Source: Halichondria panicea (taxonomy: Eukaryota > Porifera > Demospongiae > Suberitida > Halichondriidae). Taken from it: a stretch of DNA of 64,000 nucleotides. The stretch spans positions 5,420,990 through 5,484,989 of the forward strand of contig NC_087387.1 in the NCBI RefSeq assembly GCF_963675165.1. Direction: 5' to 3'. Every line of letters begins with the position of its first letter. The first letter of the stretch is position 1. The position numbers were made by a program, and so were the translations under genes. Below the pieces are notes generated by a model, which saw only the letters and a list, made by a program, of their open reading frames with translations, made no database searches and was not told the origin of the DNA. Positions 15,171 through 55,107 of the stretch are shown here, in pieces.

Positions 15171-15930
15171 CTGATGTGTGTGTGTGTGTGAGGGGGAGTG
15201 AATTGTGGTAACATGTGAGGGCTATGAACAGAAATGATCGTAGGAATCAACCAATAGGAATCAGTGAATTCACTATTCACTCCATATATAGCTGCAGGTA
15301 TAGTATTAACAGTGGATTGCAGCGACTGAAGACACTTGTATGACATTGTTTGGGTGGGGATTGAGGCAAGCAAGTCACTGTATGTTCACCCCCCGTTTAA
15401 TTAAAGAATAGTACTATCTTCGGTTTAAACCCTTGCCATAGATTTTGCACTAGCATTGCGTGCTGAGTCTGCAAAATGCCAGGGTTACACTGGGTTTCAG
15501 CAGCCGTGACTTTAGTATCATTCTAATTCTCTGAAAGCTTAGAAAGAAACCTTTCAAACTACATACAAAACTTTTTTAAAGAACGACAGCTGATGTAAAA
15601 GATTAAAGGCGTAAGGAATGTCTCTGTTTTTGTAAACTTTGAACTACATGCATGTTAATTTCACAGACTGATGAGTTACAGACTGTCAGTGGTCACTTGC
15701 AATTCCTTTTGGTCAACGTGGTGAGAAGTGATCCCACATTAACAGCATATTATATAGCCCCTTATATATACACAATTAATTATGTATGGGATTGTTACAT
15801 GTATAATTATAGTAGCCTATATATACGTCATAACCTTACATGCTGTTATAGTAGAAAAATAGACTATAGAAATTGAACTGTGAGCAACCAGCTAGTCTGA
15901 GATTGAATAACATAACAAGATTGTGCTGTA
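15171..15930. other. Spacer between sulfatase exon 7 and the SRCR array
   Basis: No gene seen. If the sulfatase halves form one gene, this is the acceptor end of its giant intron 6. The acceptor side has a short TG run (15174-15190). The plus-strand promoter of the first SRCR gene must lie in the right half. Confidence 0.6.
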
Positions 15931-17810
15931 ATGGCTGTTTTAGTGCAAGCCATTATTATTACGGCTCTAATTGGACAGCTTGTGGAGGCTCAAACAGGTA
16001 ATTTTACAAATATTAATTAATATATACTACTCAGCAACTGCTTTCTTCTATCACAAAGCTTAGAGTGCACTAACGGAGAGATCCGATTGGACGCAGAAGG
16101 AGGAAATCGCTTTGTAGAGTTCTGCTCCAGTGGTGAATGGCAAAATTTGTGCACTAATGATGGTTTGTGGGAAGAGGAGGAAGTTACAGTGGCCTGCAGG
16201 CAACTAGGCTATGCTGGGCAAAGTAAGTGTGCGATGATCGAATGCACAGTCTATACACCCACCATGCACGCAGTGCCCGTAACATGGGGTGGTGCTTGTA
16301 GTACTTCACCGACTGACAAGTTCTTCAGTATCTCAATGAAATGTAACGGGACTGAGAACAGGGTACAGGATTGTGCCGGAGTGGTCACTGAGAGAGCTAC
16401 ATGCGTGTGCAGTACCGACTTTGTATTGGGTTCAACCCTCCATGGAATAGTGCAGTGCCAACCAGGTATGTATTCCATATTGCTGGGTATTCTAACTTGA
16501 ATGAGTGTATAATTATTTACTCGATCCAGCTGACTGTGATAACGGTGAAGTGAGACTGGTGAGCGGAGACACGTGTAATGAGGGACGAGTGGAGGTGTGT
16601 ATGAACGGCAGATGGGGAACAGTATGCAACAACACACCGGAGTTAGCTGGAGCTGTGTGCTCTCAACTGGGATTCTCTCCTGAGAGTAAGTGAACCAATC
16701 TTTGTAATGGCACACTTCAATAAACGTACGTATAGCTGTCAAAGAGCTACAAAACGCATGAAATTGAACAATCCTTACTCAGCTCCCACACAGGCCAATT
16801 TTTGAAAACACCAAGCCAATGTTTTTTCTCACAAACAGAAGATTTTGGCCTGAAACAACCTTTTTTTTAGATCGATACTTTAAGAAGGTGATAAATAATT
16901 ATAAGCTATATAATTTGTGTACAGGAGCTACTGTTGTGAGATATTCTCCTGGTTTTGTACCGATCAGCAACTGTGTACTATTGAGTGGCGGTGATTTGAA
17001 CTGCAGTCAACTCACTGACGGGTCATGTGATCACTCCATGGACCTCGGAGTGGTGTGTCGTACTTACAGTGACGTGAAAGAAATTTCCAAGCAGTGCACA
17101 AGTATGAACCTAGTAGCAGCTACAAACTCTACCTGTCCGCCTAGTAAGCAAGTATGCATACCTATATACGTACTGTACACTTGAATTTGACTACCGAAGC
17201 AGTTGATGTACGTACGTAATTACAGGGTCATTCTAATCTTGATTTTTCGCCCATGTAATTCGTTTATTTATTATTGTCTGCTGAATTACATTGACTAATG
17301 ACATAATTATATACCAATTTTCTCTAGCTATAGATACTATGAACACTGACAGCAATGTTTCAAGAAGCATTACAATAGCAATGGGAGTTATCATTGCCAT
17401 ACTGATTGCGGTGATAGTCGTCATGGCAATCACATGGACGTACGCTGCACGTAGTTCTACTAGGAAACTTTCACAGAATGGGTAAGCAGTAATTTGAGCT
17501 CATGATTATTAAGCACACACACATCAATCAGTACAATAACGTTGGGAAATATGATACACCTTAAGTAGCAAACAGCTGTGACACTCATTACCATGCATGC
17601 AGTATTGCTGGTTCTGACTTGATATTCTTTGATTAATTACATGAACTGTATTCATATTATAGCATGTCAACAGAGAAAGCAGCGACAAATGGTGACGTGA
17701 ACGTTACAGCTGAGGGAAGCAAACAGTATAGCAACCCAACTTACATGGGGCCGGGGGAAGCGAGTAACCAAGACTACGATGTAGATGATGATTATGTATC
17801 TGTTCATTAA
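15931..17810 (+). CDS. Two-domain SRCR type I membrane receptor, array gene 1
   Basis: Seven exons: 15931-15997, 16064-16222, 16274-16465, 16530-16685, 16925-17143, 17328-17481 and 17663-17810, about 364 residues. Residues 1-22 are a signal peptide (MAVLVQAIIITALIGQL). Two SRCR domains follow, each split over two exons: one with VACRQLGY, one with GRVEVCMNGRWGTVC and VCSQLGF. A single membrane span lies at about 277-300. The 64-residue tail has NPTY (an NPxY-type sorting or PTB motif) and ends YDVDDDYVSVH. SRCR ectodomains usually bind protein or carbohydrate ligands; the ligand here is unknown. Intron 2 is only 51 nt, a multiple of three and stop-free, so retention would add 17 residues. It is the most divergent member of the array and looks intact. 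Confidence 0.85.
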
Positions 17811-18649
17811 CAGAAGTGAACAATTCCTTCTATCGAACAATTTTTTTAAAATTCGTATTATCATCCTAATAGCCACTATAGCCATGTAGAGCATTATTTG
17901 ATACATTTACCAACATTATGATCAATGCATGGTTGCCATTGTCTACACAATGAGAATTCTGCTGCATTGTGTACACTGGGACAATGTCAGAGCTGATCTG
18001 GCAAACTACCACACAATAAGTGTATATACAGCTGCATGGTCAGATTAGCAAGGATCGAAGTAGGCAATAGGCCGGGGTTTTTGAGTCGCTGCATCCCCCC
18101 ACAGTTTCTTCTCTATGTAATAGAGTCAGCACGCCTTGCCAACCTCAGAGCGACCGTATAGTTGTCTAAAGTTGCTACACTCTTGATGAACTGTTCTACT
18201 GGTGTTTGGAAACTTCCCTATCATACAATCACAGACAGTGCATTTGAGTCTTCCCAACAAGCTAGTATACAAGACGTTGTTCAGCTTTCAACGAGTAATA
18301 GCTACTATAGATCTTCAGATAATTACAAGACTACTGAAATTCAATACGACCACTAGTGCAGATGCTGGCTGTGCCAGTTATGCCAACACTTTACAAGTTC
18401 ACTTTTACAGTTGGTATTATCACAAGTGTAGGAGTTAGGAGTTTATACAGTATTCCACGGGGCATTGGACTCATGCAATACTTCAGATGTTTATGTTAAT
18501 ACTACCAACTAGCTGATATCTAGTACCATACAAGCTGCAACAATAATTATTCTGTACACAGTATATAGCTATAGTCAGCTGTGCTATAGTATATATCTAG
18601 AAATTGACATCACAGTCACAGAGCTCAAGCAACGAGAGAACTAACAAAG

Positions 18650-20845
18650 ATGACCCTAGGAAGAGGGCATATCAGAACAGCCATCTATACATTACTGGTC
18701 CTGTTGGAACACTCGGCAACAACTCAAGGTACTTATAGAAGATAAAAGCAGTTACTACATCACGAAGCATACAACTTCAATACTATTATAGCCCAAGGAA
18801 CTAACAAGTTTATACTGCTAGCTATATAACATGACATATCATTATCATTCTATGTAGAAATGTGTCTAACCAACAGTCTAAACTATATACTTGTTAGTAT
18901 TGATCAATGGTTTCAGTCATGAGTATAATAATTTATTTTCGTATCAGCTCAAAACTGCATTAATGGAGAGATAGACGCTGTGACTGGGTTTCCTAGCGAT
19001 GGGAGGTTGTACATTCGTTACTGCTTCAATGGAGATTGGCGGAGGATATGCACTAACAGTGGTTCATGGACCCCAAACACTGCAAAAGTTGCGTGCAGAC
19101 AGCTGGGATACAGTGACATGAGTAAATACAGCACATTGAATCGTGTTTTATATAATGTTACTCATCACAGTACTTGTGAAGTACAGAAATCTGCATGGTT
19201 TATAAGAGCTGTATATGCGCTAGTACAAATCATCGAGAGATCATAATCTTTATAACTACACAATCACACACCATCTCATATATACATGCAGTCGGCATCA
19301 AGTTCGTAAACTGTATAATTATATTATAACTGTGTACCCATGCACACATGTAGACGCTCAACCAGGTTCTTCCTGCCCCGATCCCACCACGATGGTAACG
19401 CAAACAGTGATGGTGAGATTACAGGCTAGTTGTGAGGGTCATGAGAACAGGATAGAGGACTGTCACAGTGGAGTGACACAAAGCAGCTGCTCTTGTAGGT
19501 CACAGGCATGGGTGCGCTGCGAACCAGGTGAGTATAATTATAGAGGCCATATCTAAATTAGCTCATTGGCAATTGATATTTTAATTTGTGTGTGTGCTTC
19601 CAAGTACTATTGGTTGAGTCTTACAGCCATTAATAATTATAGACAATACTTGCTGTAAGTGTCTGGCGCTAAACTACAATAATTGTACAGGTTGCACTAA
19701 CGGAACCCTAAGACTGGTGGGTGGATCCACTGACAGAGAGGGACGAGTGGAGGTGTGTGTGGGTGGTCGCTGGGGTACAGTGTGTGGTGATGGATGGACG
19801 GACAGAGAAGCTGGTCTAGTGTGTAGTAGACTGGGGTATCCACAAGAAGGTAAATAAAGCATTATTACATCATCACTTATTATAATTGATATACTGTAAT
19901 GACAGGAGCACGTGAAGTCCGTATGTTTGGTGCTGGCTTCGTGCCCATCAATAACTGCAGTATAAGTGCCACTAATGTGCGCTGTCTCCCACTCATTGAT
20001 GGTTTAGCATGTAACCACACAATGGACAGTGGAGTGATTTGCGCTTCATTTCAAGAAGCATACAACATAACTCGAGTGGCTCTAGACCAGCTCCAGGAAC
20101 AGTGTCTAACAACAGAAGCAATCACCGCCACCACTACCACTACAACCCAGCCGAGTGAGTGATGGCATTCTACTTGAATATGATTGATTGATTGATTTCT
20201 ACAGATACTAATTCAGAGCGCATAACTGATAGTGTTAGCTGTAATACAACAGTGTACGAAGTATTTCTTGGCGTCCTGATAGCTGTGATAGTTGCTATGA
20301 CAATGGGATGGATAATCACCTGTATGGTAATGAAGAGAAAATCTGGCATTAATAAAATGTGAGCTAGCTATATGCATATAACTATCAGTTTAATGTTACA
20401 CAGTACACACAGAAATGGCGGCCGATTTGAGGTCAAGAACCCAATTTATGATGACACAGTTTTGACAAATCGAGAAACAGGGCAAAATAAAGAACTCTAT
20501 CAAATTAACAGAAGCTATCTCACTGAAAGCCATAATAATGAAGTGAAACCAGCTACACCTGAGCTATCTAAACAGGAAGAAGATGATGTGAATAGAGAAA
20601 ATTCACAGGATACTGATCTAGAAGATGAAAGAGGATTTGAGAATCCAGATTATGAATCGGTGGATGGTGAGGATGAGCCGACTTACTCTGTGGTGGCTAG
20701 GAAGATGGTGACCCAGGGAGGCCGTAACACAGAGTACAACACACTAGTACGAAGTGGTAACCATGGAGACAAGATGCAGTTTGAAAGTGACTCACTTCAC
20801 CGAGAAGGAAGTTACTCGAAACTATTGATGTCTCAACAGTCTTGA
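18650..20845 (+). CDS. Two-domain SRCR receptor with long tyrosine-rich tail (family A), array gene 2
   Basis: Seven exons: 18650-18728, 18948-19121, 19354-19527, 19691-19849, 19906-20154, 20205-20358 and 20413-20845, about 473 residues. A signal peptide ends near residue 26. The second SRCR exon is a textbook case (GRVEVCVGGRWGTVCGDGW, LVCSRLGY). A Thr-rich stalk precedes one membrane span (about 298-320). The 150-residue tail contains NPIY, then NPDYESV and seven residues later YSVV, then YNTL and YSKL, an ITAM-like arrangement with Val in place of Leu/Ile. The tail exon starts in phase 2, like the tail exons of all array genes, so tails are interchangeable by splicing. Pieces of this tail recur at 24789-25161, 31891-32201, 39122-39390 and 47140-47427. 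All frames are intact. Confidence 0.87.
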
Positions 20846-21381: not shown

Positions 21382-21484
21382 ACTTCCTGCATGTCTGGCA
21401 TGAATACGATTAACAATCAGTCACCAGTCACTAAGTTGCACAGTTAACTACAGTCAAATCAGATGAGCTGTGAACTTATAGTCC
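21382..21484 (+). promoter_or_regulatory. Conserved upstream block of the B/C SRCR genes
   Basis: The words AACTTCCTGCATGTC, AGTCACTAAATAAG, TTGCACAGTTGACTACAG and AATCTGATGAG recur in the same order just before the start codons at 21485, 25857, 32818, 35585, 40924, 43811, 48958 and 51267, with spacing conserved to within about 20 bases; single words are missing from individual copies. Spacers outside this block differ much more. It probably includes core promoter and 5' leader. The pseudogene at 28393 keeps only its left part. Confidence 0.6.
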
Positions 21485-23754
21485 ATGGATACTCTACATC
21501 TGTTCATAGCAGTCACACTAGCACTCATCACTACTGCACAAGGTATACCACAACTACGGTCACTCCTTGGATGCAGGTATAAATATTATCTGGTCTGCTT
21601 TTTATTAACTGAACAGGTGTCAACAGTTGCACTAATGGAGATTTTGAGCTTATCCAGGACCCAGCTGATACTAGGATAGTTGGTTATGTTCAATACTGCT
21701 TCAGAGGTGAATGGGGGAGAGTATGTAGAGAGTCTGGATACACAACATTGTGGGATGTCAGTGAAGCTGCAGTTGCTTGTAGGCAGCTGGGATATACATC
21801 CACAGGTGAAGTATTGGACTGTAATAATAATAATTCTACTAAATAATAACGACCGTAAAATTTACAGGATATGCGTATGTAAGTCATGATAACACCTGGA
21901 CTGGAGGGTTTGTCGCTGTGAATTGTATCAATGGTTCAGAGAACTCTCTTGAAGACTGTGATCCTGGTAGAGTTATACCTGACAGAGAGGATAGCTGTAA
22001 GAGTGGCAATCATGCAGGGATACTCTGTGAGCCAGGTATGAATTTCCGGAAATGAATGAAATGGTTGAAACATTTTGTATAGCTGATTGTATTACTGGAA
22101 CTCCAAGACTGGTGGGTGGATCCACTTACAGAGAGGGACGAGTGGAGGTGTGTGTGGGTGGTCGCTGGGGTACTGTTCAAACAAATCAGTCTTTGGAAGT
22201 TGCTGAAACTGTTTGCAGAAGCCAATCACAAATAGTGGACTTCTACAGCACATCATCTAGTTACGGTTAGCTTTCAATCTATTAAGCGATGTTATACAAA
22301 CATGTAACAATCACTTCACTATTATTATCATAAAGTTTTGGAGTTTGGCTACAGTCTCTCAAAGCCTGTCTACAACTGCTCATCAAACACTAGTGGAGGA
22401 CTGGAATGTCTAAGCTCAATATCCCCTGATGACCATACCAGAGACCTTGGAGTCTCTTGTGAATCTGAACAAATTTGTGAGTGACACAATCATTATTGTT
22501 CGATATCAATGCGGTAGATAAGCATATTCAATAGGAAAGCATGTACACAAACCTAATGGAGTGTAATGCACGTCTGTTTGTACAGTGCTGATGTGCTCTA
22601 ACCATCAAGTGGTCAGTTCCGACTAGTGGATGGGAGGAGCCACAACGAAGGCAGACTGGAGGTGTGTGTGGGCGGTCAGTGGAGAGGGGTCAGCACTACT
22701 AGTCTGAGCAACACAACAGCTGGAGAGATTTGCACTCGACTGGGCTTCTCTGGAGATGGTGAGTTAAACGCAATAATTTATGTTTGCCATAATTACGAAT
22801 GTTTTATTATTATAACAGAACCCACTGTGATGAGTTTTGAACTAACTAGAGGAGATGTGTACTGTTGTAATAATGAACTCAACTGCACTCACTGCAATCT
22901 AACAGTGAGTGTTGGTCTAAGCTGTAGTAGTCAGTACTCCACAACCATGCCACCAACTACAATGATGCCCGTCACACCACCAAGCTCAGTAACAACAATA
23001 AGCACCACTGAGACCACTACAGCACAGCAAGACCAAATTACTGGCGATGGTGGATCTGTAACTGCTGTGATTGTAGTTCTAGTGTTGGCAATGGCTACCG
23101 GATGCATAGTCACATGTGCTGTTATTGTTTGGAAAAGAACCAGAGCTCGCAAAAATGATAGCATTGAAATGAGGTAAGGAAATATTGACAGCATTCATAC
23201 TGCAACACTTGCAATTTAGAAGTTTGTAAATCAGTTCACAAGTATATATACGAACTATAAAACCTCCTCAGAATTAAGGGGGGCGTTCAACTAAACATCA
23301 AATAACACTTCATATCGGGTATATAGCTATTGTACCATTGCTACAACCAAGTTAAATATCACAGTTTATGGTCTGGCTTAGAACTAAGTACATGTTCACT
23401 AGCATAATATAATCAGTTTATCTTTCTTCGTACAGTATATACACAGTCTAATGATAAATATGTTGCAGTGCACCAGGAGCTGCGATTGCTACAATTGCAA
23501 ATGAAAACTACTCGTTTTTGTCAATGCAAGATGAGCACCTTTACAGTGAGGCTACACCAGTTACACATAACTACAGCACGGCAGGCCCTGGCTACGAATA
23601 CGCAACAATAAATGAGCCAGTAATAGACAACTATGATGTAATCGGTCGTAATCAGCCAAGGCTGAATGAGGCTAAGGCAGCCAACCCACCACCAGTAAGA
23701 GATGAAGCTATCGAGAATCAAGATAACTTTCACAATGCTGAGCAGCACCTTTAA
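21485..23754 (+). pseudogene. Three-domain SRCR receptor, family B, with frameshift and early stop
   Basis: Exons: 21485-21542 (signal MDTLHLFIAVTLALITTAQ), 21617-21805, 21868-22035, 22083-22265, 22336-22476, 22586-22758, 22819-23173 (stalk and membrane span) and 23469-23754 (tail). They encode three SRCR domains, a Thr/Pro stalk, one span (VIVVLVLAMATGCIV) and a tail with YATI-x7-YDVI, an exact ITAM spacing. Two lesions: the sixth exon is 173 nt where all relatives have 174 (CATCAAG for CATCAAAG), shifting the frame into a stop; and the tail has TAA at 23752 where relatives read Tyr, although the frame continues recognisably to TAA at 23884. The first lesion is in an A run and could be a sequencing error. 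If real, only the two outer SRCR domains can be made. Confidence 0.8.
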
Positions 23755-24264
23755 ACAGGCATTAACAAGAAAGCCAAAAAAACGTCATCACCTGATGACG
23801 AGAGTCCATATGACAAGACCTTCGCTAAAGAGAAGGATACCACCGCAATGTTGGAGGGAGGAGAATACTCAAAGCTGAGGCAGTAATTGAACATTTGTAA
23901 TTTTGTAATTGTGGGAACAATTAATTCTATATGGTAGCTGTAGAGATAGCGATGGCTTCATGTGCTGTATTAGATCTAGCAAAAATGGCAATGTATATTT
24001 AAGTAAAGGGATTTGAGGATCTGACACAGGAGCATCGTGTTACAAACACAATTCAAAGCTGGGAGAATATGAAAAGCTAACAAATGATTTTCCTCTATTA
24101 CAAACATTTCTGACAGCTTTCAGTTTGTAAATTAATATGGATTGATATTGTAGTCATTGATACAGCATATTAACCCAGTCGATTAGGCTCAGTGAAATTA
24201 TAAATCTCTTGAAAACAGATTATTAAGGAATTATCGTAATAGTATAAAATTATAATGACTCGAG

Positions 24265-25161
24265 ACAAAACAACACTGGAGAGATTTGCACTCGACTGGG
24301 CTTCATTGGAGATGGTGAGTTCACCATAATAATTATTATGCATGCATGCAGTATAGCATAAGTGCCACTAATGTGAGCTGTCTCCACTCACAGCATGTAA
24401 CCACACAATGGACAGTGGAGTGATTTGCGCTTCATTTCAAGAAGCATACAAAATAACTCGAGTGGCTCTAGACCAGTTCCGGGAACAGTGCCTAACAACA
24501 GAAGCAATCGCCGCCACCACCACCACCACCACAACCCAGCCGAGTGAGTGATGGCATTCCACTGTTTGAATATGATTTCTACAGGTACTAATTCGGAGCA
24601 CATAACTGATAGTGTTTCCTGTAATACAACACAGTATACGAAGCATTTCTTGGCGTCCTGATAGCTATGATAGTTGCTATGACAATGGGATGGATAATCA
24701 CCTGTATGATAATGAAGAAAATGTGGCATAAACAAAATGTGAGCTAGTTATGCATAACTATCAGCTTAATCTTACCCTTTACACACAGAAATGGCGGCCG
24801 ATTTGAGGTCAAGAACCCAATTTATGATGACACAGTTTTGGCAAATCGAAATAAAGAACTTCATCAAACAGAAGCTATTGCACTGAAGAGGCATGATAAT
24901 GAAGTGAAACCAGCTACACTTGAGCTATCTTATTCAGAAGATGAAAGAGGATTTGAGAATCCGGATTATGAATCCGTGGATGGAGAGGAAGAGCCGACCT
25001 ACTCTGTGGTGGCTAGGAAGATGGTGACCCAGGGAGGCCGTGACGCAGAGTACAACACACTAGTACAAAGTGGTGACCATGGAGACAAAATGCAGTTTGA
25101 AATTGACTCACTTCACCGAGAAGGAAGTTACTCGAAACTATTGATGTCTCAACAGTCTTGA
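24265..25161 (+). pseudogene. Family A receptor 3' remnant with an intact orphan tail exon
   Basis: Starts with the end of a family-B third SRCR exon (TGGAGAGATTTGCACTCG, donor kept), then a damaged copy of the second-domain exon of array gene 2 (24350-24543), a membrane-span exon with a shifted frame (24585-24738), and a complete family-A tail exon at 24789-25161. That exon has a good acceptor (ACACACAG), phase 2 entry and 124 open codons with NPIY, NPDYESV-x7-YSVV, YNTL and YSKL. As a unit it is a pseudogene. The tail exon alone could serve the gene upstream, whose span exon also ends in phase 2. Confidence 0.75.
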
Positions 25162-25856: not shown

Positions 25857-28174
25857 ATGGATACTCTACATCTGTTCATAGCAGCCACACTAGCACTGGT
25901 TGCTACTGCACAAGGTATACTACTTTCTCTACTCAGTCTGTCACTTGGTGGATGCACATGCATGTATGTAAATATTATCTGGTCTGCTTTATTGACTGAA
26001 CAGGTGTCAGCAATTGCACTAATGGAGATGTTGAGCTTATCCAGGACCCAGCTGATACTAGTATAGTTGGGTATGTTCAATACTGCTTCAGAGGTGAATG
26101 GGGGAGAGTATGTAGAGAGTCTGGATACATGACATTGTGGGATGTCAGTGAAGCTGCAGTTGCTTGTAGGCAGCTGGGATATAGATCTACAGGTGAAGTA
26201 CTGGACTGTTATTCTACTAAATAATAATGACCGTACAATTTACAGGATATGCATATGTAAGTCATGATAACACCTGGACTGGAGGATTTGTCTCCTTGAG
26301 TTGTATGAATGGTTCGGAGAGCTCCCTCGAAGACTGTGATCCGTTTAGAATTATAACTAGCAGAGAGGATACCTGTAAGAGTGGAAATCATGCAAGGCTA
26401 CTCTGTGAGCCAGGTATGAATTTTCGGAAGTGAATGAACAGGTTAAACACATTTTGTGTAGCTAACTGCACTGATGGAGCCATAAGACTGGTGGGTGGAT
26501 CCACTGACAGAGAGGGACGAGTGGAGGTGTGTGTGGGTGGTCGCTGGGGAACTGTTCAAACAAATCAGTCTTTGGAAGTTGCTGAAATTGTTTGCAGAAG
26601 CCAATCACAAATACTGGACTTCTACAACACATCACATAGTCGCGGTTAGTTTTCAATTCTATGTTGCTATAGCAGTTATTATAATAACCATGCACTATAA
26701 TAATTATACAGTTTCACGGTTTGGCTACAGTCTCTCAAAGCCTGTCTACAATTGCTCTAAAAAAAACACTAATGGAGGACTGGAATGTGTAACCTCAACA
26801 ATCCCTGACGACCATACCAGGGACCTTGGAGTTTCTTGTGAATCAGAACACAATGGTGAGTGACACAATCATTAGTGCATACCGGACATCGATGTAGACT
26901 TTGCAATATTCAGCTATATTTACTCTGCCGAAAGCAGGTATTATCTAACTTGTTGCATTTTGAGTGGGCAGATCAAAGGAAACACTGTGCCAATATCTGC
27001 CATATGGCACAGGTCAAGCCTTGAACTGTGCCACTATCTAGATACTGGCATAGTATGGCTGAAGTGACCTAAAGCCCACCCTCCACCCAGTAACCTGAAA
27101 CGGTCCCTTTTATAGTATAACACTGTTAAACAGATTCAGTGGTAGGCAGAAAACGTTTTTCATGCGTTTGGTGCATTCCACAGCCACCACAAGTAGTTGA
27201 AACTAGTTGTCCTATAAAAGGAGTGATGTGTACACGGAAAGGAATGCACAAGGAATGCAACAAATCAGTTGTTACACAGCTCACTCGTGCGCACATAGGA
27301 TATATTGGCTCAGTAGCGCCTTTTCCCTCGAGGCCGCCAATATATCCCATGTGGCACTCGTGCATGTGTCACAACTATAACTTAATGTACACTAACTTAA
27401 TGGAGTGTAATGCACTTCTGTTTGTACAGTGCTAATGTGCCCTGACCATCAAAGTGGTCAGTTCCGACTAGTGGATGGGAGGAGCCACAATGAAGGCAGA
27501 CTGGAGGTGTGTGTTGGCGGTCAGTGGAGAGGGGTCAGCACTACTAGTCTGAGCAACACAACAGCTGGAGAGATTTGCACTCGACTGGGCTTCTCTGCAG
27601 ATGGTGAGCAAAGTCATAGTAATCATTTGTTTTGATTATGAATATTATCAGAATCCACTGTGATGAGTTTTGAACCAACTAAAGGAGATGTGTACTGTTG
27701 TAATAATGAACTCCACTGCACCCAATGCAATCAGATAATGAGCGCTGGTCTCAAGTGTCGTACACATAAAAGTACAAACAGTGAGTGCCAATACAGTAAA
27801 TCCAACTCGTCATTAATTCTTATATACTCACACCTTTCAGGTACAGTCATCACAGTGTGGGGGGCCACAGTTGGTGTTCTGTTGGTACTGCTATTAGTGA
27901 CAGTTGTTGCACTGGTAAATACTTGTGTTGCTTTAAGAAGGAAGAACAAGCAAAGGTACAGCTGGCATGCACCGTAACAATAGACATGTTAACATATAAG
28001 CACACATGCAACAGCAGTACACAATTAGGAGAGTCGTACCCAAGGGATAATCGTCAAGACAACCCAGATGGTAAAGGTTCAGTGACAGTGCCTGTCCCCA
28101 GTACAAAAGTGAACCCAGCTTATGATGCAGTCAAGTACACTCAAGGAGAGGAGACCTACGAAACTGTGAATTAG
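25857..28174 (+). CDS. Three-domain SRCR receptor, family C, intact
   Basis: Nine exons: 25857-25914, 26004-26192, 26246-26413, 26462-26644, 26712-26855, 27430-27603, 27652-27780, 27841-27955 and 28015-28174, about 439 residues. Signal peptide MDTLHLFIAATLALVATAQ, three SRCR domains (CRQLGY; GRVEVCVGGRWGTVQ; GRLEVCVGGQWRGV with EICTRLGF), a short stalk, one span (GVLLVLLLVTVVALVNTCVAL) followed by basic residues, and a 50-residue tail ending NPAYDAVKYTQGEETYETVN. The tail pairs NPAYDAV with YETV eight residues later, as in ITAM-like tails. The intron before the span exon is exactly 60 nt and stop-free in frame. Intron 5 holds repeats. The best intact example of family C. Confidence 0.87.
26944..27375. 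repeat. Dispersed repeat cluster in SRCR intron
   Basis: Left part is the inverted partner of 25385-25590. Right part (about 27240-27375: GTGCGCACATAGGATATATTGGCTCAGTAGCG ... ATCCCATGTGGCACTCGTGCATGTGTCAC, given here in pieces) recurs at 58860-58960 and partly at 8950-9000. Insertion into intron 5 leaves the splice sites intact. Confidence 0.65.
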
Positions 28175-30710: not shown

Positions 30711-32201
30711 TACAGACTGTCAATGAACATGTGACTGTGGAATGATACTAGTATAGCTGTAGAGATAGCGATAGCCTCATGTGTGTGTGGATGGTGTGTG
30801 TGTGTGTGTGTATGCTGCCTAATCTCATTTGGGACTTTGATAGGAGCATCAACTTACAAACACAATTTAAAGCAGGATGTATACAAAGCTAACAAAATAC
30901 CAGGATGCAACAAGCATAGTCCATGCGGTATATAAATGGCTTGAATTGATACTTCAGTTAGTGCATGATGCAGCATTAACATTTGGTGGGGTTGATTTCC
31001 TGCCTGTTCCTAAACTGCCCTGACCTTTACCCACCGCTTATACAGTTTGGCCGGCCAACTGATAGGCAGTCTGATGTGCAACCACTGTTCCCATGCATAT
31101 CATGCAACCGCAGTAACAAACTGCAGTAACAAACAGTCAGCAGTAACAAGTTATACGTTATACAAGAATTAGCTAGGCAAGATCTTCCAGCTTGAGCCTG
31201 CACATGGCCCCGCCTATTATTATCATGGTCCCATGCGATCTTACCGCTTGGGTGAGCACAAAGTAATATCACCTACCAAAAGCCTCAACTAAAATATTTC
31301 TACTATTTTCATCAAGAACTAAACGACAATCCATAGGAATTTTAAACACAAACACAAGCAACAACAACAAAACTATTAAAAATATAACCGGCTGCCACAT
31401 GTACAGTCAGCAAGCAATCATTTCTGCGAATTTAAAAAAAACAAACACCAGGTCATGCCTCCGGATAACTACATACGACAGGAGTGCTACAATCGGGCAG
31501 AGCGGACCTACCGGACCCATGCATCACAATGCTTATACCCTTTTTCTATATACTTTGATGCTTCGAGGCAGAGTTTTAGGATGGAGGGGTTTGACAGGTT
31601 GTCGATTGACACATCCGCCCAGCTAGATCATACACTGCGTCTGAAGGTGATTCTCCTCACAAAAACCCCCTGAAGAACGCCATGCACAGCATGTCGCCCA
31701 TACCATGATAATTATGGTCAAAATTCTATACCTATCGCACTCCCAAATGGCCCATTATTATATCATTAGCATAATTCCAGAGTAATCGGCAATCGTTCTT
31801 ATGCTTCAAATGGTACGCTCTGATGCTTCTAATCTCTCCTTCCAAGCAAAAATATAGAACTCCATCGAACAAACTCAACAAAGTGCGACCATAATGAAGT
31901 GAAACCATAGATCTACACCAGAGTTATCTAAACTGGAGATAATGTCAATAGAGAACATTCACAGGATACTGATTCAGAAGATGAAAGAGGATTTGAGAAT
32001 CCGGATTATGAATCGGTGGATGGAGAGGATGAGCCGACCTACTCTGTGGTGGCTAGGAAGATGGTGACTCAGGGAGGCCGTAACACAGAGTACAACACAC
32101 TAGTACGAAGTGGTGACCATAGAGACAAGATGCAGTTTGAAAGTGATTCGCTTCACCGAGAAGGAAGTTACTCGAAACTATTGATGTCTCAACAGTCTTG
32201 A
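30711..32201 (+). pseudogene. Duplicated spacer ending in an orphan family-A tail fragment
   Basis: Bases 30711-31890 are spacer shared with 45978-47140 (for example GTGGGGTTGATTTCCTGCC and GGTTGTCGATTGACACATC in both); no gene is recognisable and short frames there are not conserved. From 31891 to 32201 the end of a family-A tail is present: GFENPDYESVDGEDEPTY, YNTL and YSKLLMSQQS, with stops and deletions before residue 1 of the kept part. The tail acceptor and start of the exon are lost. Confidence 0.75.
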
Positions 32202-39121: not shown

Positions 39122-39390
39122 ATAATGAAGTGAAACCATAGATCTACACCAGAGTTATCTAAACCAGAGTTATCTAAACTGGAGAAGATGATGTCAATAG
39201 AGAACATTCACAGGATACTGATTCACCTACTCCGTGGTGGCTAGGAAGATGGTGACCCAGGGAGGCCGTGACACAGAGTACAACACACTAGTACGAAGTA
39301 GTGACCTTGGAGACAAGATGCAGTTTGAAAGTGACTCACTTCACTGAGAAGGAAGTTACTCGAAACTATTGATGTCTCAGGATCTTGATT
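39122..39390 (+). pseudogene. Orphan family-A tail fragment
   Basis: Remains of a family-A tail: the part with NPDYESV is deleted, and the later part (SVVARKMVTQGG, YNTLVRS, then YSKLL) is followed by an in-frame stop where relatives read Arg (CTTCACTGAGAAGG). It lies downstream of an intact family-B gene, in the place such fragments occupy elsewhere in the array. Confidence 0.7.
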
Positions 39391-43810: not shown

Positions 43811-45977
43811 ATGGAGACTCTTTTTATAGCAGTCTCACTATAGTTATCATCGCTACTGTACAAGGTACCTGTTAAACTGTTTCTCTGTGGAGGCATGCAT
43901 GTAAATATGTTTTATTGACTGAACCGGTGTCAGAAATTGCACTAATGGAGATGTTGAGCTTATCCAGGACCCAGCTGATACTAGGATAGTTGGTTATGTT
44001 CAATACTGCTTCAGAGGTAAATGGGGGAGAGTATGCAGATGGAATGGACACATGACATTGTGGGATGACAGTGAAGTTGCAGTTGCTTGTAGGCAGCTGG
44101 GATATACATCTACAGGTGAAGTACTGGACTGTAATATCAATAACAACTGTACAATTTACAGGATATGCATATGTAAGTCATGATAACACCTGGACTGGAG
44201 GATTTGTCTCCTTGAATTGTGTGAATGGTTCAGAGAGCTCCCTTGAAGAATGTGATCCGTATAGAGTTATAACTAGCAGAGAGGATACCTGTAGGAGCGG
44301 CAATCATGGAAGGCTACTCTGTGAGCCAGGTATGAATTTCCGGAAGAGAATGAATGGTTAAATACATTTTGTGTAGCTGATTGTACTGATGGATAGATAA
44401 GACTGGTGGGTGAATCCACTGACAGAGAGGGACGAGTGGAGGTGTGTGTGGGTGGTCGCTGGGGAACTGTACAAACAAATCAGTTTATGAAACTGTTTGC
44501 AGAAGCCAATTACAATCATAAATACTGGACTTCCACAACACATCATCTAGTTACGGTTAGCTTTCAATTGTTATGTTACAACAGCATACAGTAACTGTTA
44601 TTGTAATAGCACATGCAATACTTCACTAAAATAAATTGTATAGTTTCACGGTTTGGCTACACCCTCTCAAAGCCTGTCTACAACTGCTCATCACTAATGG
44701 AGGACTGGAATGTCTAAGCTCAACAACCCCTGATGACTATACCAGGGACCTTGGGGTCTCTTGTGAGTTTGAACAAAATGGTGAGTGAAACAATCTTTAG
44801 TGCTGAATATTTACGTAGTATAACAGGAAAGCATGTAATGGCACTACTGTTTGAACAGTGCTGACGTGCTCTGACCACTGGGCTTCTCTGGAGAAGGTAA
44901 GCTCACCCTGATATTATTTTTGCCATAATTCTTATCATCATACAGAACCGAGCTTTGAACCAACTAAAGGAGATGTGTACTGTTGCAATACTGAACTCAA
45001 CTGCACCCAATGCATTGATAGCTGCAATGATACAACGAGCAATAGTCTGCTATGTACTACACTTGAGCAAGGTATTACGAAATTATAGCAGATATTGCCC
45101 TATCACACAACCTGATACAGGAACATTACCAAGCACCACTGAGACTACTACAGCACAGCACAACCAGAGTACTATTGTACAGAGCACTGGCGATGGTGGA
45201 ACTATAGCTGCTGTGATTGTTGTTCTAGTGTTGGCAATGGCTACCAGATGCATAATCACATGTGCTGTTGTTGTTTGGAAAAGAATCACTGCTCGCAAAA
45301 ATAGCATTAAACTGAAGTAAGAAATCTTGACAGCATGCATTCAAATAACTGCCTCACTAGCAATTTAGAAGTCCATAAATAATAAATGTAATCCAAGTTA
45401 GTAGTATACTAAAGCTATAGTACCCATCGAACGGTTAACCTGTTTACTTTTAGAAAGGGGGTGACCCTCTTCATAGCGGGTATACATGTAGTATCATTGC
45501 TACAAAGTCCGAACTTGACTAAAAATAGTTTCTTTGTACAATAGTTATAATATTAACATTTCCCTGCAGTATACAAGCTACACTGTTTAGCAAGTTGTGG
45601 AAGATGAACAACTTGACGATGCAACTGCACTTGTTATGCGTAACTACAGCATGGCAGGTCCTGACTACGAAGATGCATTAGCCATAAATCAGCCAATAAT
45701 AGACACCTATGATGTAATAATTGGTCATAATCAGCCAAGGTCAAATGAAGCTCAGGTAGCCAACCCACCACCAGTAAGAGATGAATCTATCGAGAATCAA
45801 GATGACTTTCACAATGCTGAGCAGCACCTTTACGCAGCTGTCAATAAGAAAGCCAAGAAAAGGTCATCACCAGACGAGAGTCCATATGACAAGACCTCGC
45901 TAAAGAAAAAGATACCACCGCAAAGTTTGAGGGAGGAGAAAGCTGAGTCATTAATAACTAGTACAGACTGTCAATGA
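43811..45977 (+). pseudogene. SRCR receptor, family B, degraded
   Basis: All parts of a family-B gene are recognisable but many lesions occur: an extra TA in the signal exon gives a stop (ACTATAGTT); the exon 2 acceptor is GAACCG instead of GAACAG; the second domain starts with a stop (GATGGATAGATAAG) and has a 10-base deletion; the third-domain exon is reduced to about 30 bases (44866-44896); and the tail exon begins with a two-base insertion and a TAG. The span exon (45119-45318) and the tail after the insertion are well kept. It matches 28393-30710 in its 3' half, including the split stalk exon, so the two are copies of one damaged gene. Confidence 0.88.
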
Positions 45978-46038: not shown

Positions 46039-46077
<39 letters not shown>

Positions 46078-47430
46078 CTGCCTAATCTCATTTTGAACTC
46101 TGATAAGAGCATCAACTTACAAACACAATTTAAAGCAGGATGTACAAAGCTAATTAACAAAATACCAGGATGCAACAAGCATAGTCCATGCAGTATATAA
46201 ATGGCTTGAATTAATACTGCAGTTAGTGCATGATGCAGCATTAACATTTGGTGGGGTTGATTTCCTGCCTGTTCCTAAACTTCCCTGACCTTTACCCACC
46301 GCTTATACAGTTTGGCCGGCCAACTGATAGGCAGTCTGATATGCAACCACTGTTAATTCCCATGCATATATCATGCAACCGCAGTAACAAACAGCAGTAA
46401 CCAGTTATACATTATACAAGAATTAGCTAGGCAAGATCTTCCAGCTTGAGCCTGCACATGGCCCCGCCTATTATTACCATGGTCCCATGCGATCTTACCG
46501 CTTGGGTGAGCACAAAGTAATATCCTGACTACCTACCAAGAGCTCAATTAAAATATTTCTACTATTTTCATCAAGAACTAAACGACAATCCATAGGAAAT
46601 TTAAACACAAACACAAGCAACAACAACAGAAATATAACCGGCTGCCACATGTACAGTCAGCAAGCAACCATTTCTGCGAATTTGAAAAAAACAAACACCA
46701 GGTCATGCCTCTGGATAACTACATACGACAGGAGTGCTACAATCGGGCAGAGCGGACCTACCGGACCCATGCATCACAATGCCTACCCCTTTTCTACCTT
46801 TGATGCTTCGAGGCAGAGTTTTAGGATGGAGGGGTTTGACAGGTTGTCGATTGACACATCCGCCCAGCTATAGATCATACACTGTGTCTGAAGGTGATTC
46901 TCCTCACAAAAAACCCCTGAAGAACGCCACACAGCATGTTGCCCATACCATGATAATTATGGTCAAAATTCTATACCTATCACACTCCCAAACGGCCCAT
47001 AATTATATCATCAGCAAAATTCCAGAGTAATGGGCAATTGTTCTTATGCTTCAAATGGTACGCTCTGATGCTTCTAATCTCTCCTTCCAAGCAAAATATA
47101 GAACTCCATCAAACAGTCAACAAAGCACGATCATAATGAAGTGAAACCATAGATCTACACCAGAGTTATCTAAGAAGATGACGTCAATAGAGAACATTCA
47201 CAGGATACTGATTTAGACGATGTAAGAGGATTTGAGAATCCAGATTATGAATCGGTGGATGGAGAGGATGAGCCGACCTACTCTGTGGTGGCTAGGAAGA
47301 TGGTGACCCAGGGAGGTCATGACACAGAGTACAACACACTAGTACGAAGTGATGACCATGGAGACAAGATGCAGTTTGAAAGTGACTCACTTTATACCGA
47401 GAAGGAAGTTACTCGAAACTATTGATGTCT
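44890..47430. repeat. Segmental duplication (partner about 29640-32200)
   Basis: Covers the 3' half of the family-B pseudogene, the spacer with a TG run (46036-46072) and the family-A tail fragment. The order and sequence match 29640-32200 throughout, with scattered small indels. Confidence 0.85.
47140..47427 (+). pseudogene. Orphan family-A tail fragment
   Basis: Retains GFENPDYESVDGEDEPTY and YNTLVRSDDH, with a frame shift near SLYTEKEVTRN where relatives read SLHREGSYSK. The start of the exon is missing. Follows a family-B pseudogene. Confidence 0.75.
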
Positions 47431-47780
47431 CAAAAATCTTGATTTGAATATTTTTATAGTTATCTCCTACACCTGGGTAAGAAATGCACTACATTGTGTG
47501 ACAAATGTCTTGTTAGCTTCCCCACAGAATTCAATGAATATAAAGAATAGGCCATACAAATGGTGGTTTAGACTAGATATGGCCTGATGTAATACTAGTA
47601 TATAATTATGAACTTTAGTTCCTGGCTGTCTAAACATCTCTTGACTTGAAGGTATGCAAACTACATAATAGTAACTGGCTATAGTTAATTCAACCATCAG
47701 AATGCAACAATGAATAAATATATACCTGAGTTGTTATAGGAATATGTTTTTCTAAGGGATGCTGGGGCCAGGGTAGTCTC

Positions 47781-48957: not shown

Positions 48958-50807
48958 ATGGAGACTCTTTTCATAGCAGTTACACTAGTGCTCATTGCTA
49001 CTGGCACAAGGTATTTTGGATGTAAAATGTCATTCTGTGGATGCAGTTTACTGACTAAACAGGTGTCAGCAATTGCACTAATGGAGATGTTGAGCTTATC
49101 CAGGATCCAGCTGATACTAGGATAGTTGGTTATGTTCAATATTGCTTCAGAGGTGAATGGGGGAGACTATGCAGAGAGTCTGGATACACGCCATTGTGGG
49201 ATGTCAGTGAAGCTGCAGTTGCTTGTAGGCAGCTGGGATATAGATCTACAGGTGAAGTACTGGACTGTAATATAAATCATAACGACCGTACAATTTACAG
49301 GAGATGCGTCTGTAAGTCATGATAACACCTGGACGGGAGAATTTGTCTCTGTGAATTGTATAAATGGTACGGAGAACTCTCTTGAAGACTGTGACCCAGT
49401 GAAAGTTATAACTAGGTTAGATACCTGTAAGAGAGGCAATCAGGCAAGGCTACTCTGTGAACCAGGTATGAATTTCCAGAAATGAATGAAAGTTAATGGT
49501 TAAAAACATTTTGTATAGCTGATTGTGTTGGAACCCCAAGACTGGTGGGTGGATCCACTAACAGAGAGGGACGAGTGGAGGTGTGTGTGGGTGGTCGCTG
49601 GGGAGCTGTGCAAACAGATCAGTCTTTGGAAGTTGCTCAAACTGTTTGCAGGAGCCAATTGCAAATACTTGACTTCTACAGCACATCACCTAGTTACGGT
49701 TAGCTTTCAATTGTTATGTTACTATAGCAGTTATTATAAGAATCACTGCATTATAATGTAGTTTCCCAGTTTGGCTACAGCCTCTCAAAGCCTGTCTACA
49801 TTTGCTCATTAAACACTAATGGAGGACTGGAATGTGTAAAATCAACAACCCCTGATGACCATACCAGGGACCTTGGAGTCTCTTGTGAATTTGTACAAAA
49901 TAGTGAGTGACACAATCATTATAGTGCTGGATATACACATAGTTTTTAAATGGGATTGAGTTGTGTGCTTATTCAATATAAGAAAGCATGCAGGCACACT
50001 AACCAGGTACCTAATTACCCTACTATTTGTACAGTGCTAACGTGTTCTGACCATCAAAGTGGTCAGTTCTGACTAGTGGATGGGAGGAGCCACAACGAAG
50101 GCAGACTGGAGGTGTATGTGGGCGGTCAGTGGAGAGGGATCACCACTACTAGTCTGAGCAACACAACAGCTGGAGAGATTTGCACTCGACTGGGCTTCTC
50201 TGGAGATGGTAGTAAAGTCATATATAATTAACCACGTATGTTTTGCTTTAATAATTCTTATCAGAACCCACTGTGATGAGCTTTGAACTAACTAGAGGAG
50301 ATGTGTACTGTTGCAATACTGAAGTCCACTGCACCCAATGCAATAATTACAATCAGACAGCGCTGGTCTCAAGTGTTGTACACATAAAAGTATGTTAGAC
50401 AGTGAGTGCCAAAACCTATACAGTAAATCCCTCGTCCTTAATTCTTATAATTATACACACAACTTTCAGTCTCAGTCAACACATTGTGGGGGGGCCACAG
50501 TTGGTGTTCTGCTGGTGCTGCTATTGGTGACAGTTGTTGCACTAGTAAACACTTGTGTTGCTTTGAGATTGAAGAACAAGCAAAGGTACATCGATCTGCC
50601 ATCCACTGTACAATAACTAAAGTAATAGATGTTAACATGAGCCGTTTTACTCACAACATTTGCAACAGCAAACATGGTGAATCTTACCCTTGTGGAGACA
50701 ACACAGATGGTAAAGGTTCAGTGCCTGTCCCCAGTACAGAAGTGAACCCAGCTTATGATGCAGTCAAGTACACTCAAGGGGAAGAGACCTACGAAACTGT
50801 GCATTAG
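48958..50807 (+). pseudogene. Three-domain SRCR receptor, family C, degraded
   Basis: Exon equivalents 48958-49013, 49063-49251, 49301-49465, 49519-49698, 49762-49902, 50035-50208, the stalk exons from 50265, span exon ending 50585 and tail 50669-50807. Lesions: an extra base in the signal exon (ACTGGCACAAG for ACTGCACAAG) changes its phase; TGA replaces Arg in the third domain (CAGTTCTGACTAGTG); Tyr replaces a Cys in the same domain; and a four-base loss in the stalk exon (CAGACAGCGCTGG) shifts the frame. The tail is intact and ends NPAYDAVKYTQGEETYETVH. Domains 1 and 2 are open, so decay is recent. Confidence 0.85.
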
Positions 50808-51266: not shown

Positions 51267-53726
51267 ATGAACCTATGGATTGTCATGGAGACTCTGCTCA
51301 TAGCAGTTACACTACTCATCACTACTGCACAAGGTATTCTGATCATAAACTGTCACTCTGTGGAAGCATGGGTGTACTTGATATTGTTTTTATTGGCTGA
51401 ACAGGTGTCAGAAATTGCACTAATGGAGATTTTGAGCTTATCCAGGACTCAGCTGATACTAGGATAGTTGGTTATGTTCAATACTGCTTCAGAGGTGAAT
51501 GGGGGAGAGTATGCAGATGGAATGGACACGTGACATTGTGGGATGTCAATGAAGCTGCAGTTGCTTGTAGGCAGCTGGGATATACATCTACAGGTGAAAT
51601 AATTATATACTATATATAATTGTTATGATAATGGTCGTACATTTACAGGAGATGCATATGTAAATCAATGTGATAACACCTGGTCTAGAGGATTTGTAGC
51701 GGTGAATTGTAATAATGGTATGGAAAGCTCTCTTGAAGACTGCATACCAATGGAAGAGGTTCGGCCTGGCTGTGACTGTGGCAATCAAGCAAGGCTACGC
51801 TGTGAGCCAGGTGTGTGACGAATTTACCGTCAGGATCCATGATACAATAAAATGCTAAACACATTTTGTATAGCTGACTGTACTGATAAAAACATAAGAC
51901 TGTTGGGAGGATCCACTGACAGAGAGGGACGAGTGGAGGTGTGTGTGGGTGGTCGCTGGGGAAGTGTTCAAACAAATCAGTCTTTGGAAGTTGCTGAAAC
52001 TGTTTGCAGAAGCCAATCACAAACACTGGACTTCTACAGCACATCACCTAGTTACGGTTAGCTTTCAATTGTTCTGTTGCTACAACACTTATAACAATCA
52101 CTTCACTATAATCATTATACATGCAGTGTCACAGTTTGGCTACAGTCTCTCAAAGCCTGTTTACAGCTGCTTATTAAACACCAAAGGAGGACTGGAATGT
52201 TGTCTAAACTCAACAACCCCTGATGACCATACCAAGGACTTTGGAGTCTCATGTAAATCTGTACAAAATGGTGAGTGACACATTAGTGCTGGATATCCAG
52301 GTATAGCAGAGGTTTTAAATGGGATTCAACTTATTTCATAGGTATTAAAGCAAGTACAAACCTAATAGAGTGAATGCACTACTGTTTGTACAGTGCTGAT
52401 GTGCTCTGACCATCAAAGTGGTCAGTTCCGACTAGTGGATGGGAGGAGCTACAACAAAGGCAGACTGGAGGTGTGTGTGGGTGGTCAGTGGAGAGGGGTC
52501 TGTACTAGTCTGAGCAACACAACTGCTGGAGAGATTTGCACTCGACTGGGATTCTCTGGAGATGGTATAACTTTAACACGATACTAATTATGTTTTGCTT
52601 TAATAATTCTTATCAGAACCCACTGTGACGAGCTTTGAACAAACCAGAGGAGATGTCTACTGTTGCAATACTAAACTCTACTGTACCCAATGCAATAATG
52701 GCAATCAGACAGTGAGCATTGGTCTAAGGTGTCCTACATATCAAGCAACTACAAGTAGTCAGTGCCCTACTACAATAATAAACATACCACAAAACATAGT
52801 AACAACAACAGCACAGCAAAATCAGACTGAGAGTACTACCGATGGTGGATCTGTAACTGCTGTGATTGTTGTTCTAGTGTTGGCAATGGCTACCGGATGT
52901 ATAATTACATGTGCTGTTGTTGTTTGGAAAAGAATCAGTGCTCGCAAAAATAGCATTAAACCGAGGTAAGAAATCTTGACAGCATAAAAAAACACTTGCA
53001 TTAATTAGACGTTCGTATATAAATCAGTCGCATATACACAAGTCAGTATACAACTATATACAAAAGCATACTACTGTTAACTCTCTCAGCCAAACATTAA
53101 TATTAAGTAACCCCCTTCATGTCGGGTGTACATGTATATGCATGCATGTATTATAGCTATTGTAACATTGCCACAAAACACTTTAAAGTTGGACATAATA
53201 ATGTATACTTGATGGTCTGACTTAGCTCAGCTGTACATTTTCATTAACATAGAAAATAGTTGATCTTTCTTCGTACGCTATAGTGCAATGTTAAATATGT
53301 TGCAGCAGTGCATCAGGAGCTACTACAATTGCTACAATTCCAAATGAAAGCTACACGTTTCAGCAAGTGCAAGATGAACAACTTTACAGTGAGGCTACAC
53401 CAGTTACACATAACTACAGCACGGCAGTCCTTAACCACGAAGGTGTAACCATGCATCCCCCGGTCATAGACACCTATGATGTAATCGGTCATAATCAGCC
53501 AAGGTTGAATAAAGCTCAGGCAGCCAACCCACCATCAGTAAGAGATGAAGCTATCGAGAATCAAGAAGACTTTCACAATGCTGAGCAGCACCTTTACGCA
53601 GCCGTAAACAAGAAAGCCAAAAAAAGGTTATCACCAGACGAGAGTCCATATGACAAGACCTTTGCTAAAGAGAAGGATACCACCGCAATGTTGGAGGGAG
53701 GAGAATACTCAAAGCTGAGGCAGTAA
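51267..53726 (+). CDS. Three-domain SRCR receptor, family B, intact
   Basis: Eight exons: 51267-51333, 51405-51593, 51649-51810, 51874-52056, 52127-52270, 52394-52564, 52617-52965 and 53309-53726, about 560 residues. Signal MNLWIVMETLLIAVTLLITT; three SRCR domains, the second half of the first having a different cysteine pattern (NQCDNTW, PGCDCGN); a Thr-rich stalk with Asn-X-Ser/Thr sites; one span (AVIVVLVLAMATGCIITCAV); and a 140-residue tail with LYSEA, YDVIGHNQPR, HLYAAV, SPYDKT and a final GGEYSKLRQ. The tail acceptor is a tandem GCAGCAG, so a Ser may be included or skipped. The last family-B member of the array, and the only one keeping the full original C terminus. Confidence 0.87.
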
Positions 53727-54329
53727 TTGAACATTCGTTTGTAATTGTGGGAACGATTACTATAACAAAATTCTATACTATTATGGTAACTGTAGAGATA
53801 GTAATAGCTTCATGTATTAGATCTAGCAAAAATGGCAATGATATTTATGTGTGTGCAACCTAAAGGGATTTGAGGATCTGGTACAGGAGCATCGTATTAT
53901 GAGGACATCAACAGCTAACAACATTTCTGCCAGCTTTCAGAAATAATATGATATTGTAGTCATTGATGCAGCATAAAATAATATTAACCCAGTCATCAGT
54001 GAAATTATTTCCCCCAAGTACAATAGATTATATGGCTCCTGAAAATAACGTAGATATTGTGTTACTGATACTGAAAAAAAAAAACAGAAAAAGAATCAGG
54101 TATAAAAACATTGACAGTATGAACAGTAACTTGATGTTTGCTTTGGTAGATACATATACTTTGATGGCTACAATACGATACTGAAATCAGTTCATGCGTG
54201 TACACAAGTCAGTATAAAAACTATGCACTATATCCCCAAGGCAACTCACATTGTAGTCGATATAGCGTACAAAATAACATTCTTAGTACACCAGAAGCTA
54301 CTGCAGTTGTTAAGAAACTAGCGTATAAC

Positions 54330-54475
54330 CGATAATTTTCGGGGGATAACACATTCGTGGTTGAGCAATATTTAGTCACTTCGTGGATAATATTATCGTG
54401 GTTGCTGCTTGCACTGCAGGTAAAGGTAGGCAAGGTCGTGGTATGAGCTCCAACCAAGAATATTTTGTCCCACCA
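54330..54475. repeat. Decayed relative of the foldback element at 5168-5346
   Basis: Shares ATAATTTTCGGGGGATAA, repeated TTCGTGG words, and CTGCAGGTAAAGGTAGGCAAGG with the complement of the element in the kinase intron. Confidence 0.6.
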
Positions 54476-54477
54476 GC

Positions 54478-54590
54478 TGTTCAGCAAGTGCAAGATGAAC
54501 AGCTTGACGCTGTAACTGCACTTGTTATAATTATGTAACTACAGCACAGCAGGTCCTGACTACGAAGATGTAACCGTCAGCCAGTAAGGC
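54478..54590 (+). pseudogene. Family-B tail fragment at the end of the array
   Basis: GTTCAGCAAGTGCAAGATGAAC and GGTCCTGACTACGAAGATGT match the family-B tail (QQVQDEQ, GPDYEDV) with a frame break between them. Nothing else of a receptor is present to the right, so this is the edge of the SRCR array. Confidence 0.75.
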
Positions 54591-55107
54591 CACACAAAGT
54601 CAATTTTTGTAGTTTCTCTATTCAATTTTAGCAAGCGGATGAACGATAATAGATTTTAATTTGAAAACACACCCTCAATTTCCTTAATAAGCGGAAGTGT
54701 ATAGTATATTTGTGACATACAAAACATCAATCATCGTAGTTAGGGGTCACGTGATATTAATTTTAACTCTTTTGGAAAGCTGCCAAATTCCAAGCGCATG
54801 TCTAGAATTTTAGCACTCCCCCATCATTAACTCTGTTATTATCAACGCAGGTTAGGATTCCCAGGACCTTGGTATTGCAAAGTAAAACACATTGATTTCA
54901 GCAAATATCCCATAAATCTGATTACTATACTAAACTATACGCATGTCAGTAGAAAACACATTCAAAATAGCATTTAACACCAAATATTTATGTCATTAAA
55001 TATTGTGGTGATATTTATGGTACAAAACCTCTGAATAAAGAGCAACCTCTTTATAGAAACAATCATAATATCACACCCCTCAGTGAATACACGCTCAAAT
55101 GACTGAC

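Follow-up and report, generated by a model that had tools for sequence, protein, structure and literature searches.

A cluster of about ten receptor genes lies within a single intron of an arylsulfatase A-like gene, on the opposite strand, in the genome of the sponge Halichondria panicea. The whole stretch of DNA that was analyzed, here called the window, comprises 64,000 nt (C11:5420990-5484989, in an assembly of 131 Mb and 39 contigs), and coordinates refer to the window unless a contig is given. The sulfatase gene occupies the minus strand from 57168 to 13432, and the genes within its intron 6 encode receptors with SRCR domains. From sequence comparison we consider it likely, with a probability of roughly 0.7, that the SRCR array grew in place inside an old intron of one sulfatase, which would have been functional and spliced across the array during most of its growth.

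Results

The host gene is an arylsulfatase interrupted by a 40-kb intron

Spliced alignment over positions 57400 to 13300 indicated a gene of 11 exons and 10 introns, 9 of which are 179 to 378 bp in length. The exception is intron 6, which spans 39,937 bp (15171 to 55107), and all 10 introns have GT-AG boundaries, the only kind that the aligner permits. Exon 1 (57073 to 57168) contains the ATG, a signal-like start, and the DD of the metal site as aligned to human arylsulfatase A (ARSA), and exon 2 (56589 to 56793) encodes a CSPSR motif. The 5′ half continues through exon 3 (56193 to 56275), exon 4 (55758 to 55814), and exon 5 (55445 to 55526) to exon 6 (55108 to 55236), which ends in a phase 1 donor. 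On the far side of the intron, exon 7 (14963 to 15170) resumes in phase 1 and is followed by exon 8 (14519 to 14776), exon 9 (14236 to 14339), exon 10 (13876 to 14038), and exon 11 (13432 to 13590), with a TGA directly after. The alignment bears out the initial annotation of this DNA, which had placed exons 1 to 6 at 57168 to 55108 and exon 7 at 15170 to 14963 with a phase 1 join between them, and had put five 3′ exons on the minus strand about 40 kb from the 5′ half. It gave about 514 summed codons; the coding length is 1,544 nt, which is not a multiple of three, and a one-base deletion in exon 8 had been missed.

The translated exons identify the host as a member of the arylsulfatase A family (S1 sulfatases). 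A joined query of 517 amino acids was used for local and genome-wide exon searches, for Pfam, and for comparison with ARSA; it had an incorrect residue where exons 7 and 8 meet and a surplus one at the frame break, which it bridged. A corrected query of 516 amino acids was used for the spliced alignment and for models of paralogs. Residues 22 to 504 of the joined query aligned with human ARSA (PDB 1e2s) with an E value of 6.9e-134. Pfam reported both Sulfatase (3e-65) and Sulfatase_C (7e-22) over the joined exons. The CSPSR of exon 2 matches C-x-P-S-R, the motif for formylglycine formation. Moreover, of 11 residues of the ARSA active site, 10 are identical in the sponge protein and Ser150 is replaced by Thr. 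Seven of these residues are encoded by exons 1 to 5, before intron 6, and four by exons 7 and 8, after it, and therefore neither half alone should be an enzyme. The sponge gene differs from that of human ARSA (PDB 1e2s and 1auk) in its 40-kb intron and in the frame break of exon 8, and its product is a putative enzyme.

Intron 6 contains one family of SRCR receptor genes

The intron holds about 10 plus-strand SRCR receptor genes, namely, one first gene and nine receptors. All 32 SRCR-domain matches within intron 6 have plus-strand orientation, and no Pfam match was found in any of the nine minus-strand open reading frames (ORFs) of at least 100 amino acids that lie wholly within it, in agreement with the earlier claim that the SRCR genes between the halves are plus-strand only. 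The profile PF00530 scored above its cutoff in 4 of 10 plus-strand ORFs tested, 9 of which, including all 4 that matched, sit in the intron. The first gene (15931 to 20842) encodes a signal peptide, SRCR-type exons, and a cytoplasmic tail, its extent being taken from matches and not from an exon model. The nine modeled receptors, numbered g2 to g10, all combine SRCR-type domains, of which the model has three, with a membrane span, and five carry a multi-tyrosine tail. Four models are free of frameshifts and stops: g3 (25857 to 27959), g5 (32818 to 35121), g6 (35603 to 38752), and g7 (40924 to 43284). One frameshift was modeled in g10 (51285 to 53660), three in g4 (28393 to 30641), and one together with a stop in g2 (21485 to 23820), which has three SRCR-type domains, a transmembrane segment, and a tail. 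The probable pseudogene g9 (48958 to 50589) has two frameshifts and two stops, and the pseudogene g8 (43811 to 45896) has seven frameshifts and three stops. The receptor query combined exons of several array copies, and some of the flaws in the models may be artifacts of this composite. We conclude that the nested genes form one family on the strand opposite the host and that at least some of them are open.

Lone cytoplasmic-tail exons of the first receptor type were also observed between the nested genes, at 24790 to 25158, 31857 to 32198, 39225 to 39380, and 47120 to 47439. These may be relics or shared tail exons.

The composite receptor was then compared with the entire genome, and the matches considered are the best 90 of 752. 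Every match of at least 72% falls at C11:5440679-5474649, inside intron 6, and outside the intron the top match reached 71% over one 50-residue stretch, with the others at 28 to 69%. No donor site for the SRCR block elsewhere in the genome appeared among these matches. Three pairs of nested stretches diverge by 5.0%, 9.1%, and 18.6%, the last being the most diverged of the three pairs compared and not the maximum for the array. We conclude that the nested receptors have no close relatives elsewhere among the matches listed, and the confinement of their matches of at least 72% to the intron therefore fits expansion in place.

The array is not nested as a whole, as the initial annotation had it. 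In 154 kb read around the gene, 43 more SRCR-domain matches (40 plus strand and 3 minus strand) lie to the right of exon 1 and 1 lies to the left of the gene. The domain matches at 59435 to 63756 on the plus strand mark the start of a second sub-array that extends past the window, and weakly related receptor tails, among the same best 90 matches, reach C11:5588897 at least. The right-hand genes belong to a different subfamily, with 31 to 84% identity to the nested exons. The 5′ half of the sulfatase therefore stands between two sub-arrays, of which the left alone is nested. A genome search with PF00530 (best 150 of 1,364 candidates) showed no entries from the window and was excluded from the counts.

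Intron 6 is probably an enlarged ancestral intron

Eight paralogs of the sulfatase were modeled, three on contig C15 and five from a cluster at C11:2.87-2.93 Mb that had an exon 2 match; loci at C7:4.669-4.673 Mb and C17:3.438 Mb were outside the sample. Several models are uncertain at their first and last exons, and the final C11 gene was clipped by the end of the stretch modeled. An intron equivalent to intron 6 was found at residue 218, in phase 1, in all eight. Its length is 47, 144, and 47 bp in the C15 genes and 101, 80, 107, 80, and 96 bp in the C11 genes. Because the intron occupies the same codon and phase in all of the paralogs at 47 to 144 bp, its position is old and its size is not.

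Moreover, no second copy of exons 3 to 7 at matching identity was found genome-wide, the next paralogs reaching at most 69% (best 83 of 104 candidates scored), and no exon of either sulfatase half was detected inside intron 6 when the surrounding 154 kb was searched at E values up to 1. Taken with the paralog introns, the unduplicated exons and the lack of stray exons make a single gene with an enlarged ancestral intron the simplest reading. The initial annotation had offered either expansion within intron 6 or a split gene; the paralogs, the single copy of exons 3 to 7, and the receptor matches give better support to expansion, with the restriction that only the left sub-array is nested. Its statement that neither half has exons of the other nearby held for exons 3 to 7 and failed elsewhere, since exons 8 to 11 recur at 1929 to 612 and exon 1 or 2 recurs at four sites within 65118 to 103678. 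We conclude that the host exons flanking the array are in order on a single strand, with matching phases, and that the intron is ancestral to the host family.

Repeats are present at both edges of the intron. On the exon 6 side, a repeat of about 120 bp (54319 to 54438) is dispersed in the genome, with about 40 copies among the matches listed (best 40 of 1,391), and near exon 7 there is an element with one 89% copy on contig C16 and many short matches. Neither of these edge repeats, examined genome-wide, points to an insertion mechanism. An Rfam search of the window gave no match.

The sulfatase has accumulated little damage

The disabling changes expected under neutrality were estimated from the divergence of duplicates, with per-lineage divergence taken as half of the pairwise figure. 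Frame-breaking indels per substitution were 0.07 to 0.21 in six local duplications, which are partly coding, and values of 0.07 and 0.15 were used; the stop fraction was 0.045 (0.049 in a separate computation), and the number of splice-site bases was assumed. Since the receptor split at 18.6% (9.3% per lineage), exons 1 to 11 would be expected to have gained 20 to 32 disabling changes if neutral, and 1 is seen. In the 860 bp of exons 1 to 7, there is neither a frameshift nor a stop and every splice site is retained, which caps neutral evolution at about 1.6 to 2.4% divergence (P = 0.05).

A second yardstick is a truncated duplicate of exons 8 to 11 on the minus strand at 612 to 1929. It lies in a 4-kb tandem duplication (−1926 to 2001 versus 10942 to 14855, 91.5% by BLAST), the right-hand copy of which carries exons 8 to 11 of the main gene and also covers a kinase ORF at 11033 to 12268. 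Since the duplication of exons 8 to 11, at 4.1%, the neutral expectation is 4.5 to 7.0 disabling changes, and again 1 is seen. The probability of at most one is 0.007 at 7.0 and about 0.06, calculated by hand, at 4.5, so the deficit is not significant at the low rate. The two copies differ by 13 coding substitutions, 8 silent and 5 amino acid changing, as counted in a separate comparison because the first alignment had nonhomologous ends. When the five amino acid differences were polarized by eye, four were derived in the truncated copy (three by way of paralogs and one by way of human ARSA alone) and one was unclear. Thus, exons 8 to 11 of the main copy show no clear derived amino acid change, compared to 8.6 to 12.7 expected if neutral. 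We conclude that decay of the sulfatase is low, which supports a gene that probably remained functional, or under selection, once much of the array was present, provided that the array grew in place.

Several points weigh against this reading. The one-base deletion, near 14595, lies in a short homopolymer of exon 8 where the left copy is in frame. The gene as assembled is not open to its terminal stop, and the unrepaired product is 394 amino acids long, ending at a stop near 14275 in exon 9. Since the Sulfatase match extends to query residue 349, close to the break in frame, the C-terminal domain would be lost. The deletion could represent recent loss of the gene or one allele, or it could be a sequencing (base-calling) error, which is plausible in a homopolymer. 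Because the frame of exon 8 is broken, the sulfatase may no longer work. Taken alone, the 4:0 split of amino acid changes lacks significance; the truncated copy is likewise below the neutral expectation (probability of at most five changes, 0.01 to 0.14), so the expectation may be too high. Furthermore, the age of the nesting would be read from duplicate divergence only, and had the array arrived preassembled at a recent date, the case for selection would not extend to the gene in its nested form.

Partial copies of the sulfatase and alternative explanations

Besides the truncated exons 8 to 11, exons 1 and/or 2 recur at four sites to the right of the window: 65118 to 65606, 80349 to 82356, 90390 to 90596 (exon 2 only), and 101814 to 103678. 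As judged by eye, one copy combines damage in exon 1 with two single-base indels in exon 2, one is missing part of exon 2, one has no detectable exon 1, and the sole copy with both exons open reads CSPSQ instead of CSPSR. To the left of exon 2, three of the four have several hundred bases in common that are absent from the main gene, and the fourth has about 90 in common with them, also by eye. The shared left flank looks as if the copies came from one truncated progenitor, and the partial copies on both flanks of the gene look like relics.

The relics bear on the possibility that the array split the sulfatase long ago and that both halves are themselves relics. Both the frame-breaking deletion of exon 8 and the relic-like appearance of nearby partial copies of the same gene would fit such a history. 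The undamaged exons 1 to 7 do not, as neutral decay past the limit given above should have left a flaw. Moreover, the truncated copy, unlike the main gene, has 14-bp and 1-bp coding deletions and an altered exon 10 acceptor. We consider an ancient split unlikely because decay is nearly absent.

Alternatively, two tandem sulfatases could have flanked an SRCR cluster, with one losing exons 1 to 6 and the other losing exons 7 to 11, such that the halves come from different copies. The presence nearby of partial copies of both gene ends lends this some appeal, yet it requires two deletions that meet in intron 6 without overlap, no leftover exon of either half was detected in the interval at E values up to 1, and the low decay favors one constrained unit. 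We give this explanation little credence.

An assembly artifact, in which the array was misjoined between the halves, seems more improbable still. The same contig does have, near its end, a near-identical inverted duplication (80 mismatches in 10,000) that may be two haplotypes joined. Against a misjoin, there are no N bases anywhere in the window, the three nested pairs compared differ by at least 5% and would be separable by long reads, the halves are complementary, and no match of at least 72% to the nested receptors occurs elsewhere among the best 90 of 752. That the right-hand copies of exons 1 and 2 are alternative first exons spliced to exon 3, giving variable 5′ ends, is barely credible and was dropped: their upstream, same-strand position and the splice sites kept by several of them would fit, but three of the four are damaged or incomplete, the one open copy lacks CSPSR, and the alignment shows relics.

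Neighboring genes and related loci

To the left of the sulfatase, kelch-repeat and protein kinase ORFs of 344, 401, 268, and 411 amino acids alternate on the minus strand from 3284 to 12268 in a small tandem array. Elsewhere in the genome, an arylsulfatase paralog at C15:1581516-1583841 encodes a protein closely resembling that of C15:5785477-5783164 and has a frame break at 1582436. Ten sulfatase matches on the large contigs C2, C4, C7, C10, C16, and C17 cover nearly the full PF00884 profile in a single open frame of 482 to 571 amino acids and look intronless.

Outside the window and near the end of contig C11, SRCR matches occur in mirror pairs around C11:6716064 (C11:6643982-6788146). One 10-kb pair of mirror arms has 80 mismatches in 10,000 positions in register, and a second 10-kb pair closer to the center has 7,404 in 10,000 and is not mirror identical. 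The mirror could reflect a large inverted duplication of recent origin or the head-to-head joining of two haplotypes.

Discussion

If the array grew in place, the starting point would have been a single arylsulfatase A gene with a short phase 1 intron 6, into which an SRCR receptor gene arrived in antisense orientation. Tandem duplication on the spot would then have produced about 10 genes and pseudogenes and stretched the intron to 40 kb, with the sulfatase kept as one functional unit, spliced over the array, for most of that period. The exon 8 deletion would come last, as a very recent inactivation, as one allele, or as an error of homopolymer sequencing. We infer this order of events, and we also infer that the 40-kb intron is transcribed and spliced out: transcription of the sulfatase would run leftwards, with the intron removed from the product, the receptors would be transcribed rightwards from promoters of their own, and opposing polymerases could collide. 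The co-regulation or conflict between sulfatase and receptors raised by the initial annotation would presuppose such transcription through the array. It could also be, though this is improbable, that the intron is a protected nursery in which selection on the sulfatase would hold the segment together while the array multiplies, and in which antisense transcription of the host would affect receptor choice.

The arrangement is unusual, yet it is of the same kind as two described in insects. In Drosophila, a cluster of GMC oxidoreductase genes lies in an 83.2-kb intron of flotillin-2 (Flo-2), almost all in the opposite orientation, for which the authors regard accidental transposition into the host as the parsimonious hypothesis (PMC1891103). 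Flo-2/GMC is a close precedent, since there, too, a gene family cluster occupies one large intron of an unrelated host on the opposite strand. As described in that source, the Flo-2 nesting is common to four insect species, and only 16 host residues precede the intron; in contrast, the sponge host is cut in the middle of its coding sequence, the nested family is one of receptors and includes pseudogenes, the host is frameshifted as assembled, and the case is known from one genome. A cluster of TipE sodium channel subunit genes likewise lies inside a single host intron, the last intron of CG18675, in insects; the host spans about 20 to 100 kb, and some lineages escaped nesting (PMC3240667). That account concerns other genes, the terminal exons of host and TipE overlap, and the arrangement is conserved and expressed. 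Tandem arrays of SRCR genes are described for the sponge Amphimedon (PMC10855680), where the word "nested" occurs zero times in the main text and the passages on these arrays mention no nesting in an intron. No paper on SRCR genes nested in a sulfatase intron was found in one search of one literature collection.

The locus offers a datable case, apparently outside the insects, of an immune-type receptor array growing within the intron of a conserved enzyme gene. The paralogs supply the starting intron of 47 to 144 bp, the receptor duplicates scale the age of the array, and the partial sulfatase copies provide a yardstick of decay. The system would test how large an intron is tolerated by a compact animal genome and what opposing transcription may cost the function of the host.

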